A program made the translations under genes and the position numbers. From Collinsella aerofaciens (lineage in GTDB: Bacteria > Actinomycetota > Coriobacteriia > Coriobacteriales > Coriobacteriaceae): 64,000 nt of DNA. The notes under the pieces were generated by a model, which was not told the DNA's origin, made no database searches, and was given only the letters and a program-made list of their open reading frames with translations. The stretch spans positions 1,054,001 through 1,118,000 of the forward strand of contig NZ_CP084004.1 in NCBI RefSeq assembly GCF_020181355.1, written 5' to 3'. This document shows, piece by piece, positions 37,491 to 48,089 of this stretch. Numbering within the stretch: position 1 is the stretch's first letter; each line of letters opens with the position of its first letter.

Positions 37491-37577
37491 GCGGGCGTGG
37501 CGGAATTGGCAGACGCGTACGGTTCAGGTCCGTATGGGGGCAACCCCATGAAGGTTCAAGTCCTTTCGCCCGCACCA
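37491..37577 (+). tRNA. tRNA-Leu (CAG)
   Basis: 87 nt with encoded CCA. Class II tRNA with variable arm GGGGG-CAA-CCCC-type; anticodon loop TTCAGGT closed by TACGG/CCGTA gives CAG. Acceptor stem GCGGGCG/CGCCCGC is perfect. Confidence 0.97.
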
Positions 37578-37806
37578 TTAAATGAAAGAGCTCCCAGCAA
37601 TGGGAGCTTTTTTGTTATGGGCCCATCGCAGGGACTTGAACCTGCGAAGGAGCGAGCGTAAAGAAAACGCGGAGCGTTTTTAGCGAGCTGGCGAGGACGC
37701 CGTCAGGCGGCCGAAGCCGGTGCGGATCCGCGAAGCGGATACGCGGACGTCCTTTCGCCCGCACCATTAAATGAAAGAGCTCCCAGCAATGGGAGCTTTT
37801 TTGTTA
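37560..37806. repeat. tRNA-Leu-anchored duplication with multi-hairpin core
   Basis: A 58-bp direct repeat (37560-37617 and 37749-37806, offset 189) duplicates the last 18 bases of tRNA-Leu and its terminator. Between the copies is a 131-bp unique part: first an inverted T-arm-like segment (37625-37648; its complement carries GGTTCAAGTCC with the same T loop as the tRNA), then a GC-rich core of hairpins. In the core, AAAACGC-GGA-GCGTTTT is at 37664-37680, GGCG-AGGA-CGCC at 37690-37701 and ATCCGC-GAA-GCGGAT at 37726-37740. The same core follows two tRNA-Arg genes. Confidence 0.85.
37586..37613 (+). terminator. tRNA-Leu terminator (first copy)
   Basis: Eight-base-pair stem AGCTCCCA-GCAA-TGGGAGCT with flanking A/T tracts. 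It is duplicated 189 bp downstream (37775-37802). Confidence 0.92.
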
Positions 37807-37998: not shown

Positions 37999-39504
37999 GG
38001 TGGCGCGCGCAGACGTGGTGTAAGAGCGTCCTGAGGTCCGTCGCTGCAAGTCCCGATATTACTCCTTCTTGAGACCGCGCCTCTCGACTATCTCGTCCAC
38101 TATCTCCCTGGCGCGCCGCCCGAGCGCGCGGCGCCTCCCCTCTGTCGGGGCCGGCCTGTCCGCGGGCTCGGCGAAGCCCTCGGCGGCCGAGGCCTCGGAG
38201 AACACGCGCTGCTGGGACCACTGTCCCTCGGTCTCCATGAGGCTCGCGCACGTCAGGCGCAGCATCGACTCCCTCGAGGGGAAGGACTGCACGACCCTGT
38301 AGCGGCGCTTGATCTCGCGGTTGGCGCGCTCCTGGACGTTGTTGGTGCGGAGCTTGGCCCAGTGCGCCCTGGGGAAGGCCGTGAACGCCAGCGCGGAGTC
38401 CTCGGCCTGCTCGAAGACCTCGCCGGCCCTGGCGGACACCGACGCCACCCAGGGCGCCGCCTCGGCCCACACGCAGCGCGCGAGGTCGGGGTCGTCCTGG
38501 TAGACCGCGGCGTGCACGAGGTCCCTGACGGCCGCCTTGGAGTCCTCGGGCCTGCCCGAGCAGGCGCTCTGGAGGTTGCGCTGCAGGTGCGTCACGCAGC
38601 GCTGCCAGGCGCAGCCCTGGAACAGGCGCGAGACGGCGGCCACGAGCCCGGCGTGGCTGTCGGAGACCACGAGGCGAACGCCGGCCAGCCCGCGCTCGCG
38701 CAGCCCGCCGAGGAATGCCGCCCAGGAGTCCTCGCTCTCGGTGTCGACCACGTCGCAGCCCAGGAAGTGCTTGCGCCCGTCGGCGCCCAGCCCGATCGCG
38801 GTCACGACGCCCTGCGAGACGACCGACGAGCCGACCCTGCAGCTCATGTAGGTGGCGTCGAGCCACAGGTAGCAGCACGGCGTGCCCGACAGGTCGCGGC
38901 GGCGGAACTCCGCCACCTCGGCGTCGAGGTCGGAGCAGAGGCTCGAGACCTCCGAGCTCGACAGCGAGGATATGCCCAGCTTGGACGCCACGCGCTCGAC
39001 CTTGCGGGTGGACACGCCGCATACGTACATCTCCTGCACGATGGCGGCCACCGAGGTGTCGACGCGCGACCATCGCGCGAGCATGCCCTCGGGGTAGTAG
39101 GTGCCGTGCCTGAGCTTGGGTATCTCGAGCTCCACGTCGCCCACGGCGGTCTTGAGCGACCTGGGGCGGTAGCCGTTGCGGCTGTTCTCCCTGCCGTCGC
39201 TGCGCTCGTTGCGGCTCGCGCCGCACATCTGCTGGGCCTCGGAGTCCATCAGCGCGTTCATCACGCTGCCCAGCACCCTGCACGCGAACTCGCGCGCGTC
39301 GCCGCACTCCTGCCAAAGCCTCGCCGCCTCGAGGGCCTCGTCGCGGCCGAGGCGCAGTACACTCTCTTCTTGGGGCATCGCCTTTCCTTCCATTCGTCAC
39401 CTTCATTACTCCAACGACGAATTCTAGGCGGTGTCCCCTCCCTTTCAAGAAAGGGCGGAGGCGGGGCATGCCCCGCCTCTTACACCACATCTCTGCGCGC
39501 TACC
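37999..39504 (-). mobile_element. IS256-family insertion sequence, copy B
   Basis: Same 1,506-bp element as 18076-19581, in the opposite orientation. Flanked by the 9-bp direct repeat TAGACCTCG (37990-37998 and 39505-39513). The inverted repeats and transposase appear identical to copy A. The two inverted copies bracket about 18.4 kb (19582-37998). Confidence 0.93.
38059..39393 (-). CDS. IS256-family (mutator-type) transposase
   Basis: 444 aa, identical in sequence to the protein at 18187-19521, with the same DDE residues (LWLDATY, VVSDSHAG, NVQERANREIK). Full length. Confidence 0.94.
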   Translation of the reverse strand: MEGKAMPQEESVLRLGRDEALEAARLWQECGDAREFACRVLGSVMNALMDSEAQQMCGASRNERSDGRENSRNGYRPRSLKTAVGDVELEIPKLRHGTYYPEGMLARWSRVDTSVAAIVQEMYVCGVSTRKVERVASKLGISSLSSSEVSSLCSDLDAEVAEFRRRDLSGTPCCYLWLDATYMSCRVGSSVVSQGVVTAIGLGADGRKHFLGCDVVDTESEDSWAAFLGGLRERGLAGVRLVVSDSHAGLVAAVSRLFQGCAWQRCVTHLQRNLQSACSGRPEDSKAAVRDLVHAAVYQDDPDLARCVWAEAAPWVASVSARAGEVFEQAEDSALAFTAFPRAHWAKLRTNNVQERANREIKRRYRVVQSFPSRESMLRLTCASLMETEGQWSQQRVFSEASAAEGFAEPADRPAPTEGRRRALGRRAREIVDEIVERRGLKKE

Positions 39505-44283: not shown

Positions 44284-44360
44284 GCGGCGTTACCTCAGCT
44301 GGATAGAGGGTCTGACTACGAATCAGAACGTCATAGGTTCGAATCCTATACGCCGCACCA
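44284..44360 (+). tRNA. tRNA-Arg (ACG), copy 1
   Basis: 77 nt with encoded CCA. Acceptor GCGGCGT/ACGCCGC; anticodon loop CTACGAA gives ACG, which would be edited to inosine by TadA. Promoter TTGACT (44243-44248) with TTTATA (44267-44272). Terminator AGCCTCCG-GCAA-CGGGGGCT follows at 44373-44392. Confidence 0.97.
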
Positions 44361-44592
44361 ATTGAAATTGAAAGCCTCCGGCAACGGGGGCTTTTCTTTT
44401 ATGCCGGCACCGCATGGATTCGAACCTCGGTCGAGGCGCGAGCGTGAAGCGGACGCGGAGCGTTCGTAGCGAGCGGGCGAGTCCGCCGGCAGGCGGGCGA
44501 AGCCGGTGCGGATCCGCGAAGCGGATGCGCGGAATCCTATACGCCGCACCAATTGAAATTGAAAGCCTCCGGCAACGGGGGCTTTTCTTTTA
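44341..44592. repeat. tRNA-Arg copy 1-anchored duplication with multi-hairpin core
   Basis: A 61-bp direct repeat (44341-44401 and 44532-44592, offset 191) duplicates the T-arm 3' half, acceptor end and terminator. Between them are an inverted T-arm-like segment (44406-44430; complement contains GGTTCGAATCC as in the tRNA) and a GC-rich core. The first core hairpin is CGGACGC-GGA-GCGTTCG (44450-44466), where the Leu and copy-3 elements have AAAACGC-GGA-GCGTTTT: two base pairs changed on both sides. A further truncated core follows at 44594-44622. Confidence 0.85.
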
Positions 44593-44712
44593 CGCCGGCA
44601 GGCGGGCGAAGCCGGTGCGGATCAGCACGACAACTTAATCGGCGCTTCGTAAAAATTTTCCAAATTGTTGCTTGACCCATCGAGGGCTCACGTGCATAAT
44701 AATCCGTGCGTT

Positions 44713-44789
44713 GCGGCGTTACCTCAGCTGGATAGAGGGTCTGACTACGAATCAGAACGTCATAGGTTCGAATCCTATACGCCGCACCA
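44713..44789 (+). tRNA. tRNA-Arg (ACG), copy 2
   Basis: Identical 77-nt sequence to copy 1. Promoter TTGACC (44672-44677), 17-bp spacer, CATAAT (44695-44700). Terminator at 44801-44824. This copy has no duplication element. Confidence 0.97.
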
Positions 44790-44947
44790 ATTGAGTTTTA
44801 AGCCTCCGGAAACGGGGGCTTTTCTTATATCGCGATGCACCGAAGATCGTGCCGAGCCCTCCAAATGAGTAAAAATCAAATTCGATAACTTTTTTTGAAA
44901 AAACGCTTGACCATTATTCAGTCCATGTGCATAATAATCAACAAGTC

Positions 44948-45024
44948 GCGGCGTTACCTCAGCTGGATAGAGGGTCTGACTACGAATCAGAACGTCATAG
45001 GTTCGAATCCTATACGCCGCACCA
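44948..45024 (+). tRNA. tRNA-Arg (ACG), copy 3
   Basis: Identical to copies 1 and 2. Promoter TTGACC (44907-44912), 17-bp spacer, CATAAT (44930-44935). Terminator AGCTCCCG-GTAA-CGGGGGCT at 45036-45055. Confidence 0.97.
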
Positions 45025-45287
45025 TTTGAGATTAAAGCTCCCGGTAACGGGGGCTTTTCTTTTACGTAGGCACCGCATGGATTCGAACCTCGGTCGAGGC
45101 GCGAGCGTAAAGAAAACGCGGAGCGTTTTTAGCCCGCGGGCGAGCGCGCCGGCAGGCGGGCGAAGCCGGTGCGGATCCGCGCAGCGGATGCGCGGAATCC
45201 TATACGCCGCACCATTTGAGATTAAGGCTCCCGGCAACGGGGGCTTTTCTTTTACGTAAACACCGCATGGATTCGAACCTCGGTCAA
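45005..45287. repeat. tRNA-Arg copy 3-anchored duplication with multi-hairpin core
   Basis: A direct repeat of about 93 bp with few mismatches (45005-45097 and 45195-45287, offset 190) that includes the tRNA 3' part, the terminator and an inverted T-arm-like segment (45070-45094). The core between (about 45098-45194) has AAAACGC-GGA-GCGTTTT (45113-45129), GGCG-AGCG-CGCC (45139-45150) and ATCCGC-GCA-GCGGAT. After the second copy the unit stops just inside the next inverted T-arm. Confidence 0.85.
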
Positions 45288-47920: not shown

Positions 47921-48011
47921 GGAGAGCTGACCGAGAGGCCGAAGGTGCTCGCCTGCTAAGCGAGTATGCCCCAAAAGGGCATCTGGGGTTCGAATCCCCA
48001 GCTCTCCGCCA
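47921..48011 (+). tRNA. tRNA-Ser (GCU)
   Basis: 91 nt with encoded CCA and a class II variable arm (TGCCC-CAAAA-GGGCA). Anticodon loop CTGCTAA closed by CTCGC/GCGAG gives GCU. Acceptor GGAGAGC/GCTCTCC is perfect. Confidence 0.97.
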
Positions 48012-48060: not shown

Positions 48061-48089
48061 AAAGGCGGCTGGGGATTCGAACCCTCAAA
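48061..48089. repeat. Inverted tRNA-Ser T-arm/acceptor-like segment
   Basis: The complement reads GAGGGTTCGAATCCCCAGC followed by CGCC, close to the T-arm and 3' end of the neighbouring tRNA-Ser. It sits directly after the terminator, the same position as the inverted T-arms after tRNA-Leu and tRNA-Arg, but no core or duplication follows. Confidence 0.6.

Follow-up and report, generated by a model that had tools for sequence, protein, structure and literature searches.

Structured units behind tRNA genes in Collinsella aerofaciens

The stretch of DNA analysed here (the window, 64,000 nt of the Collinsella aerofaciens contig NZ_CP084004.1) contains three copies of a tRNA-Arg(acg) gene as well as a tRNA-Leu(cag) gene. 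Behind the first and third Arg copies (Arg-1 and Arg-3) and behind the Leu gene lies a structured unit, which is followed by a second copy of the 3' end and terminator of the respective tRNA gene. The features are listed below in plus-strand coordinates of the window. Anti-T-arm denotes the reverse complement of the T-arm of the local tRNA, and bit scores refer to the covariance model R1 described further below, of which all three scored units are training sequences.

44284..44360, +, tRNA-Arg(acg) copy 1, hosts a unit
44341..44409, +, Arg-1 3' end and terminator, first copy of a direct repeat
44416..44427, +, Arg-1 anti-T-arm, reverse complement of tRNA positions 51-62
44416..44537, +, Arg-1 structured unit with helices P1, P0, P2 (tandem GA), P3 and P4; R1 132.5 bits
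44532..44600, +, Arg-1 3' end and terminator, second copy, 191 bp downstream
44593..44626, +, further core fragment, probably the remnant of a tandem unit
44713..44789, +, tRNA-Arg(acg) copy 2, without unit; right flank closely resembles a filled site in a relative (locus L056)
44948..45024, +, tRNA-Arg(acg) copy 3, hosts a unit
45005..45095, +, Arg-3 3' end, terminator and anti-T-arm, first copy of a direct repeat
45079..45090, +, Arg-3 anti-T-arm
45079..45200, +, Arg-3 structured unit; R1 132.7 bits
45195..45285, +, Arg-3 second copy, 190 bp downstream, with another anti-T-arm at its end (45269-45280), where a partial second unit begins
37491..37577, +, tRNA-Leu(cag), hosts a unit
37632..37752, +, Leu structured unit, anti-T-arm at 37632-37643; R1 130.1 bits
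37749..37812, +, Leu 3' end and terminator, second copy, 189 bp downstream
48071..48084, +, anti-T-arm behind tRNA-Ser(gct) (47921-48011); no core seen, probably a remnant

An initial annotation of this region had proposed a common core at offsets of 191, 190 and 189 bp behind Arg-1, Arg-3 and Leu, in which the duplicated part is always the local tRNA's own 3' end and terminator. The coordinates of the direct repeats bear this out at all three genes: 44341/44532 (69 nt, 99% identity), 45005/45195 (91 nt, 96%) and 37560/37749 (64 nt, 98%). A 24-base core pattern, derived from the copies themselves, has three matches in the window at up to 3 mismatches, versus 0.01 expected. The unit starts further to the left than had been assumed, as it begins with the inverted local T-arm. 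This inverted T-arm, the rule that the unit ends match the local tRNA and the likeness to RtT RNA, all treated below, were not part of the initial annotation.

The units follow one plan. The terminator of the tRNA gene is followed by the inverted local T-arm (positions 62 to 51 approximately, extending further in some units), a small hairpin ending in the sense sequence of positions 51-53, a common core of three hairpins at the place of the T-loop, the sense sequence of positions 59-76 with CCA, and again a terminator. In the window, about 15 bases lie between the terminator T-run and the anti-T-arm. Units may also occur in tandem.

The second Arg copy had been regarded as an empty site. It indeed lacks a unit, but its ancestral emptiness is not demonstrated. 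In the relative with locus L056, the second Arg gene carries a unit and a right flank closely similar to that of copy 2 in the window, and at three further loci (L039, L048, L074) the core is found behind all three Arg genes. Therefore, a precise loss at copy 2 is indistinguishable from a site that was never filled. At yet another locus (L082), three tRNA-Arg genes have retained only the anti-T-arm and the first core bases, as expected from recombination between the repeats.

Conserved secondary structure

From 23 units (alignment A1) a structural model with five helices was derived, on which the covariance model R1 is based. P1 pairs the part of the anti-T-arm corresponding to positions 62-60 with the duplicated positions 60-62, and is longer in several units. 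P0 pairs the part corresponding to 53-51 with the sense copy, with a GNNA loop in 11 of 23 units. P2 contains a tandem GA motif, which reads GA/GA in 18 of the 23 units, GG/CC in two, GA/CC in two and GA/AA in one. Together with P3 and P4 these helices make up the unit, and a single-sequence fold of the Arg-1 plus strand yields much the same arrangement.

The initial annotation had pointed out that the first core hairpin changes from AAAACGC/GCGTTTT (Leu, Arg-3) to CGGACGC/GCGTTCG (Arg-1) with the stem preserved, and had taken this as a sign of selection on structure. The change is as described, and the conclusion extends well beyond three copies. In A1, 95.7% of the pair cells are paired, 21 pairs show double changes, and 94 cells are doubly changed, compared to 26.2 ± 4.2 after shuffling (the shuffle controls here and below take no account of kinship) and 11–22 in slid controls. 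A second alignment, A3, comprises 82 matches (81 distinct) outside the training set of R1, but aligned to R1. Here, 93.7% of the cells are paired and double changes occur in 38 of 38 pairs, with 597 doubly changed cells versus 145.8 ± 11.2 shuffled and 62–128 in slid controls; the covariation amounts to 0.512, versus 0.129 shuffled and at most 0.077 in slid controls. Five rows of A3 belong to an unrelated repeat of one genome (G153). Without them, the remaining 76 distinct rows still have 93.3% of the cells paired, double changes in 37 of 38 pairs and 544 doubly changed cells versus 130.5 ± 9.2 (200 shuffles). Substitutions that break the pairing, which a larger alignment might have brought to light, thus remain the exception, and the structure of the unit is under selection.

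Which strand carries the structure is left unsettled by the predicted folding. The z-scores for the RNA of the plus strand are -3.25 (Arg-1), -2.82 (Leu) and -4.74 (tmRNA), those for the minus strand -1.19, -1.65 and -5.56. Folded as DNA, Arg-1 scores -1.36 and 0.20 and the tmRNA unit -4.93 and -4.65. GNA triloops are found in 18 of 23 A1 units in P2 and in 17 of 23 in P4; in A3 they occur in at least 48 of 82 rows in P4, and in only about 14 of 82 in P2.

Match of the unit ends to the local tRNA

We read 133 matches of R1, 17 of them from the genus, of which 12 are training sequences. First copies lying 20–74 nt behind a tRNA or transfer-messenger RNA (tmRNA) gene on the same strand account for 118 of them, and the hosts represent 29 kinds (28 tRNA kinds and tmRNA). 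Among the remaining 15, four are second copies in tandem; one (L163, genome G126) is a first copy located 215 nt behind tRNA-Leu(cag) with the local anti-T-arm present; three stand behind 3' ends not called by ARAGORN, two of them tmRNA-like (L261, L152) and one tRNA-Ser-like (L276); one lies at a contig edge (L160); and six come from G153, where the fetched stretch contains no tRNA. Hence, outside G153 there are 127 matches, all of which have an upstream tRNA or tmRNA 3' end except the one at the contig edge. The DNA between tRNA and unit in L163 contains a long inverted repeat, either a different hairpin element that was inserted there or an additional terminator. Across the genomes of the genus that were read, it is the same tRNAs that carry units again and again.

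The left end is complementary to the T-arm of its own tRNA. This was counted for 117 units; a unit behind tRNA-Ala (L165) was excluded, as this tRNA has C54 and lacks the TTCRA anchor. The alignment was anchored on the GAA facing positions 54-56; in two units (L168, L119) these bases are not in place and the R1 position was used instead, and a third (L307) was shifted by one. At the variable T-arm positions, 743 of 819 bases are complementary to the own tRNA, while permutation of the partners gives 577 ± 7.5 (maximum 615 in 5000 permutations). After deduplication, the count is 480 of 546 versus 366 ± 6.4. Complementarity amounts to 0.96–1.00 at positions 52-62 and 0.81 at position 51, and drops on either side. 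At the most variable position, 59, the own tRNA matches in 0.96 of the cases, compared to 0.38 for tRNAs of other kinds. No other T-arm fits as well as the own one in 80 of 117 units, and in 24 the own T-arm is tied for best. Over positions 51-62, 77 of 117 anti-T-arms match at 12 of 12 bases and 110 at no fewer than 11. The unit L165 keeps the complement of T54 although its tRNA-Ala(ggc) has C54; it may face a changed copy of the tRNA or predate the change.

Position 57, which is part of no modelled helix, matches the own tRNA in 117 of 117 units. All 106 units behind tRNAs with G57 show a C, and all 11 behind tRNAs with A57 (six kinds) show a T. It is the A57 cases that carry the weight, because the R1 consensus has C at this position. 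Since the duplicated end starts at position 59 and therefore cannot impose the base facing 57, we consider the complement at 57 the best indication that the unit pairs with the tRNA itself.

The right end copies the same tRNA. All 18 bases of positions 59-76 are repeated in 91 of 118 units and at least 14 of 18 in 105 of 118, the second copy lying 163–247 bp on, whereas a control with randomly chosen tRNAs of other kinds reached only 8 of 118. Furthermore, at five Collinsella loci the anti-T-arm has an identity of 0.95–1.00, compared to 0.68–0.92 for the preceding 18 nt. An anti-T-arm that is kept while the spacer diverges points to selection rather than to the memory of an insertion.

Distribution among genomes

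The host genome has a size of 2.28 Mb. A BLAST search detected five cores in it, behind Arg-1, Arg-3, Leu(cag), tmRNA and Gly(ccc), plus one fragment. A pattern search for inverted T-arms followed by inspection revealed that Val(tac), Ser(cga), Lys(ttt) and Gln(ttg) are also followed by units, although diverged ones, whereas Gly(gcc), Lys(ctt), Arg(cct) and Ser(gct) are followed by an anti-T-arm but no full core. The anti-T-arm of tRNA-Arg(cct) is a perfect 21-nt inverted copy of the T-arm region with no recognisable core. R1 finds the four diverged units, none of which was in its training set, with 63, 61, 50 and 48 bits. Applied to the whole genome at E ≤ 1 it reports 12 places, adding a unit behind Leu(caa), a second Gly copy of poor quality and a unit with a right end like that of tRNA-Glu(ttc). 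The last of these (C1:1243631-1243746, minus strand) lies about 1.5 kb downstream of the tRNA-Glu(ttc) gene, as if separated from it by an insertion.

Within the genus, BLAST finds the core in 28 of 43 genomes, and R1 at E ≤ 0.001 in 38 of 43. In the order Coriobacteriales (NCBI lineage), 76 of 247 genomes have R1 matches at this threshold. Outside the genus, 31 of the 38 positive genomes were re-searched, and 113 of the 123 matches obtained there were read. In the phylum, 12 of 396 genomes match R1 at E ≤ 1e-4. Only G420 among them does not belong to the order, and there a unit with full anatomy stands behind tRNA-Ser(gga). A second model, R2, for which A3 was used including the five rows from G153 and without E. 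coli sequences, added no further actinobacterial groups, as it again matched 12 of the 396 phylum genomes with G420 as the only one outside the order. Summarizing, a genome of the Collinsella group has such repeats behind some ten of its tRNA and related genes.

The core pattern was found in 50 named stretches, which belong to Collinsella (mostly C. aerofaciens or uncultured), apart from one uncultured Coriobacteriaceae assembly and one Coriobacteriia bacterium. Viral contigs gave no match to the exact core pattern and phage records no match to the core; one partial match is on a Collinsella replicon of 900 kb that is filed under plasmids. In the window, Rfam models at gathering threshold detected nothing but tRNAs, and lowering the threshold to E ≤ 1 brought up no convincing family in the Arg region. 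No description of such units in Coriobacteriia was found in the open-licence literature, which is weak evidence of absence, some search terms being poorly chosen.

Comparison with RtT RNA and other repeats

The known occurrences of RtT RNA (RF00391; rttR in E. coli) are in gammaproteobacteria, chiefly in the tyrT operon of E. coli, and the RNA has been loosely linked to the stringent response. In E. coli K-12 the repeats of tyrT and tyrV are annotated and scored as RtT. In our reading, they consist of an inverted tRNA-Tyr T-arm with two bases changed, a small hairpin, a core and a copy of positions 59-76, which is the plan of the Collinsella units, down to the right end that repeats the tRNA 3' end including CCA. 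An RtT copy annotated behind tRNA-Pro in a different E. coli strain likewise appears to have tRNA-Pro ends. A tandem GA motif in a helix, reported for RtT in PMC7657543, is shared as well, though not necessarily in the corresponding helix. The core sequence differs, P2 seems longer in the Collinsella units, and the hosts in the order of Collinsella comprise 28 tRNA kinds and tmRNA. We conclude that the units are very probably an RtT-like structured element of tRNA and tmRNA genes.

RtT-like sequences are present in 4695 of 5426 E. coli genomes, at 1–14 places each (median 3), and the relevant part of PMC2658671 lists rtT as a variable-number repeat. In E. coli MY504 (L242), tRNA-Tyr genes and an RtT unit are located beside purU in a record labelled as a 237 kb plasmid. 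The Rfam model RF00391 matched only E. coli among 14 control genomes. In 120 genomes of the order it gave nine weak matches; the top two lie behind tRNA-Ser(cga) and have the full anatomy, and the other seven have no tRNA in the stretch. In the opposite direction, R2 picks up 4 of the 5 E. coli RtT copies in the two stretches searched, likewise weakly (13.4–18.1 bits).

Two other types of repeat invite comparison. The repetitive extragenic palindromic (REP) sequences and bacterial interspersed mosaic elements (BIMEs) are also short intergenic hairpins in several copies. In contrast to these, the matches read outside G153 stand at tRNA or tmRNA 3' ends or at a contig edge, the model matches 12 places in the whole host genome, and the unit ends are copied from the neighbouring gene. 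REP palindromes are dispersed and untied to one gene class, which does not apply to the 127 matches outside G153. With the tRNA attachment sites of integrative elements the units share the duplication of the tRNA 3' end from the T-loop on. They differ by copies about 190 bp apart, with a structured core between them and an inverted T-arm, and by the absence of any phage or viral match to the core (a search for integrases was not made).

Possible function and alternative explanations

Our favoured reading, to which we give about an even chance, is that the unit gives rise to a trailer RNA whose complementarity to the own tRNA's T-loop is maintained by selection. The unit would be transcribed by readthrough from the tRNA promoter, since the roughly 15 bases from T-run to anti-T-arm leave little room for a promoter of its own (no promoter scan was made). 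By analogy with the annotation of RtT in E. coli, processing of the transcript may yield a small RNA that ends in CCA. In its fold, the anti-T-arm would be held by the duplicated strands of the T-arm. The sequence UCGAA or UUGAA, unpaired in the model and complementary to the own T-loop, could then pair with the own tRNA, either as precursor or in its free unmodified form, and this pairing may tune maturation or amount of that tRNA. PMC4986893 reports the release of RNA from the tRNA transcript for E. coli and Actinobacillus, as well as RtT RNAs on Northern blots in Actinobacillus, where they are encoded upstream of tRNA genes. For T-loop pairing as the actual function we would put the chance somewhat below even.

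A number of observations weigh against this reading. The strongest one against T-loop pairing is that, as we read it, the E. coli anti-T-arm deviates at positions 57/58, where the Collinsella units are complementary. The upstream, not downstream, location that PMC4986893 gives for its RtT RNAs does not fit a trailer either. The RF00391 cut-off of 45 bits is reached in none of the 120 genomes of the order, the best score being 24.4 bits, which is why we call the units RtT-like and not formally RtT. The R2 matches to E. coli RtT are weak (E 0.036–0.28), and R1 gives no match to RtT of K-12 at E ≤ 10. R1 also catches other hairpin repeats, as the G153 matches show; of the three that were printed, two are clearly copies of one such repeat. 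A T-run, used as a crude test for a terminator, lies between tRNA and unit in 81 of 118 cases. Within 51-62, one or more mismatches occur in 40 of 117 anti-T-arms, another T-arm fits the variable positions better in 13 of 117, and by the longest run Gly T-arms suit the Leu(taa) units and the single Ser(gct) unit better than the own T-arms do. Furthermore, for 13 of 118 units the stretch searched contains no second copy that reaches 14/18, and the minus strand of the tmRNA unit folds relative to shuffled sequences as well as its plus strand.

The main alternative is a mobile element of tRNA 3' ends, whose insertion copies the T-arm of the target inverted on one side and positions 59-76 with the terminator on the other. 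The local match would then be a by-product of insertion, the target duplication, a long one, would start at position 59, and the hairpins would serve an RNA or single-stranded DNA intermediate. The occurrence of one structural model behind 29 tRNA and tmRNA kinds is as expected from such an element, as are the two E. coli hosts of an RtT core, tRNA-Tyr and tRNA-Pro, sets of host tRNAs that overlap yet differ between genera among the units read, and sites with similar flanks of which some are filled and others not. The GNA triloops at many hairpin tips also fit, as such loops are very stable in DNA. A reading as single-stranded DNA alone, built on these loops, was given up and is kept only within this explanation, because RtT has been detected as RNA and loops of the GNRA type are present too. 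The recurrence of units at the same tRNAs in the genus and the anti-T-arm kept beside a diverging spacer point to selection after insertion. The searches of phage records and viral contigs gave no match to the core, the replicon listed as a plasmid gave the one partial match, and there is no known partner protein, although no search for one was made. We regard the mobile element as the less likely explanation, but one with an appreciable chance.

Two further explanations account for less. A plain barrier at transcript ends, such as a bidirectional terminator or a REP-like stabiliser of mRNA ends standing behind tRNA genes by coincidence, would agree with a hairpin-rich, intergenic unit that adjoins and duplicates a terminator. 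It leaves the local anti-T-arm, the match at position 57 and the placement at tRNA and tmRNA 3' ends unexplained and is very unlikely. Remnant attachment sites of integrative elements or phages using tRNA T-loops come to mind because the duplicated segment spans the T-loop to the terminator, as many tRNA integration sites do. In 105 of 118 units, however, the second copy follows at the short distances given above (to which the search was limited) with a conserved structured core between, and no viral or phage match to the core was found. We consider such an origin highly improbable.

Returning to the trailer RNA, one may speculate that RtT-like RNAs are widespread regulators, one per tRNA gene, each formed with the inverted T-arm of its tRNA and complementary to the T-loop, and each addressing its own tRNA or tmRNA via a base-paired trailer, with the ends rewritten for each new tRNA as the element spreads. 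In this general form the proposal is unlikely. The same plan behind 28 tRNA kinds and tmRNA across the order gives the RtT family a defining rule, and the local match yields a testable idea about the target, the T-loop of the own tRNA. Either outcome would be useful, be it a class of tRNA-specific regulatory RNAs or mobile DNA with ends adapted to every new target.

Finally, an open reading frame of 444 residues lies behind the tRNA-Leu unit (window positions 38059-39393, minus strand) and by eye resembles a transposase of the IS256/mutator type.
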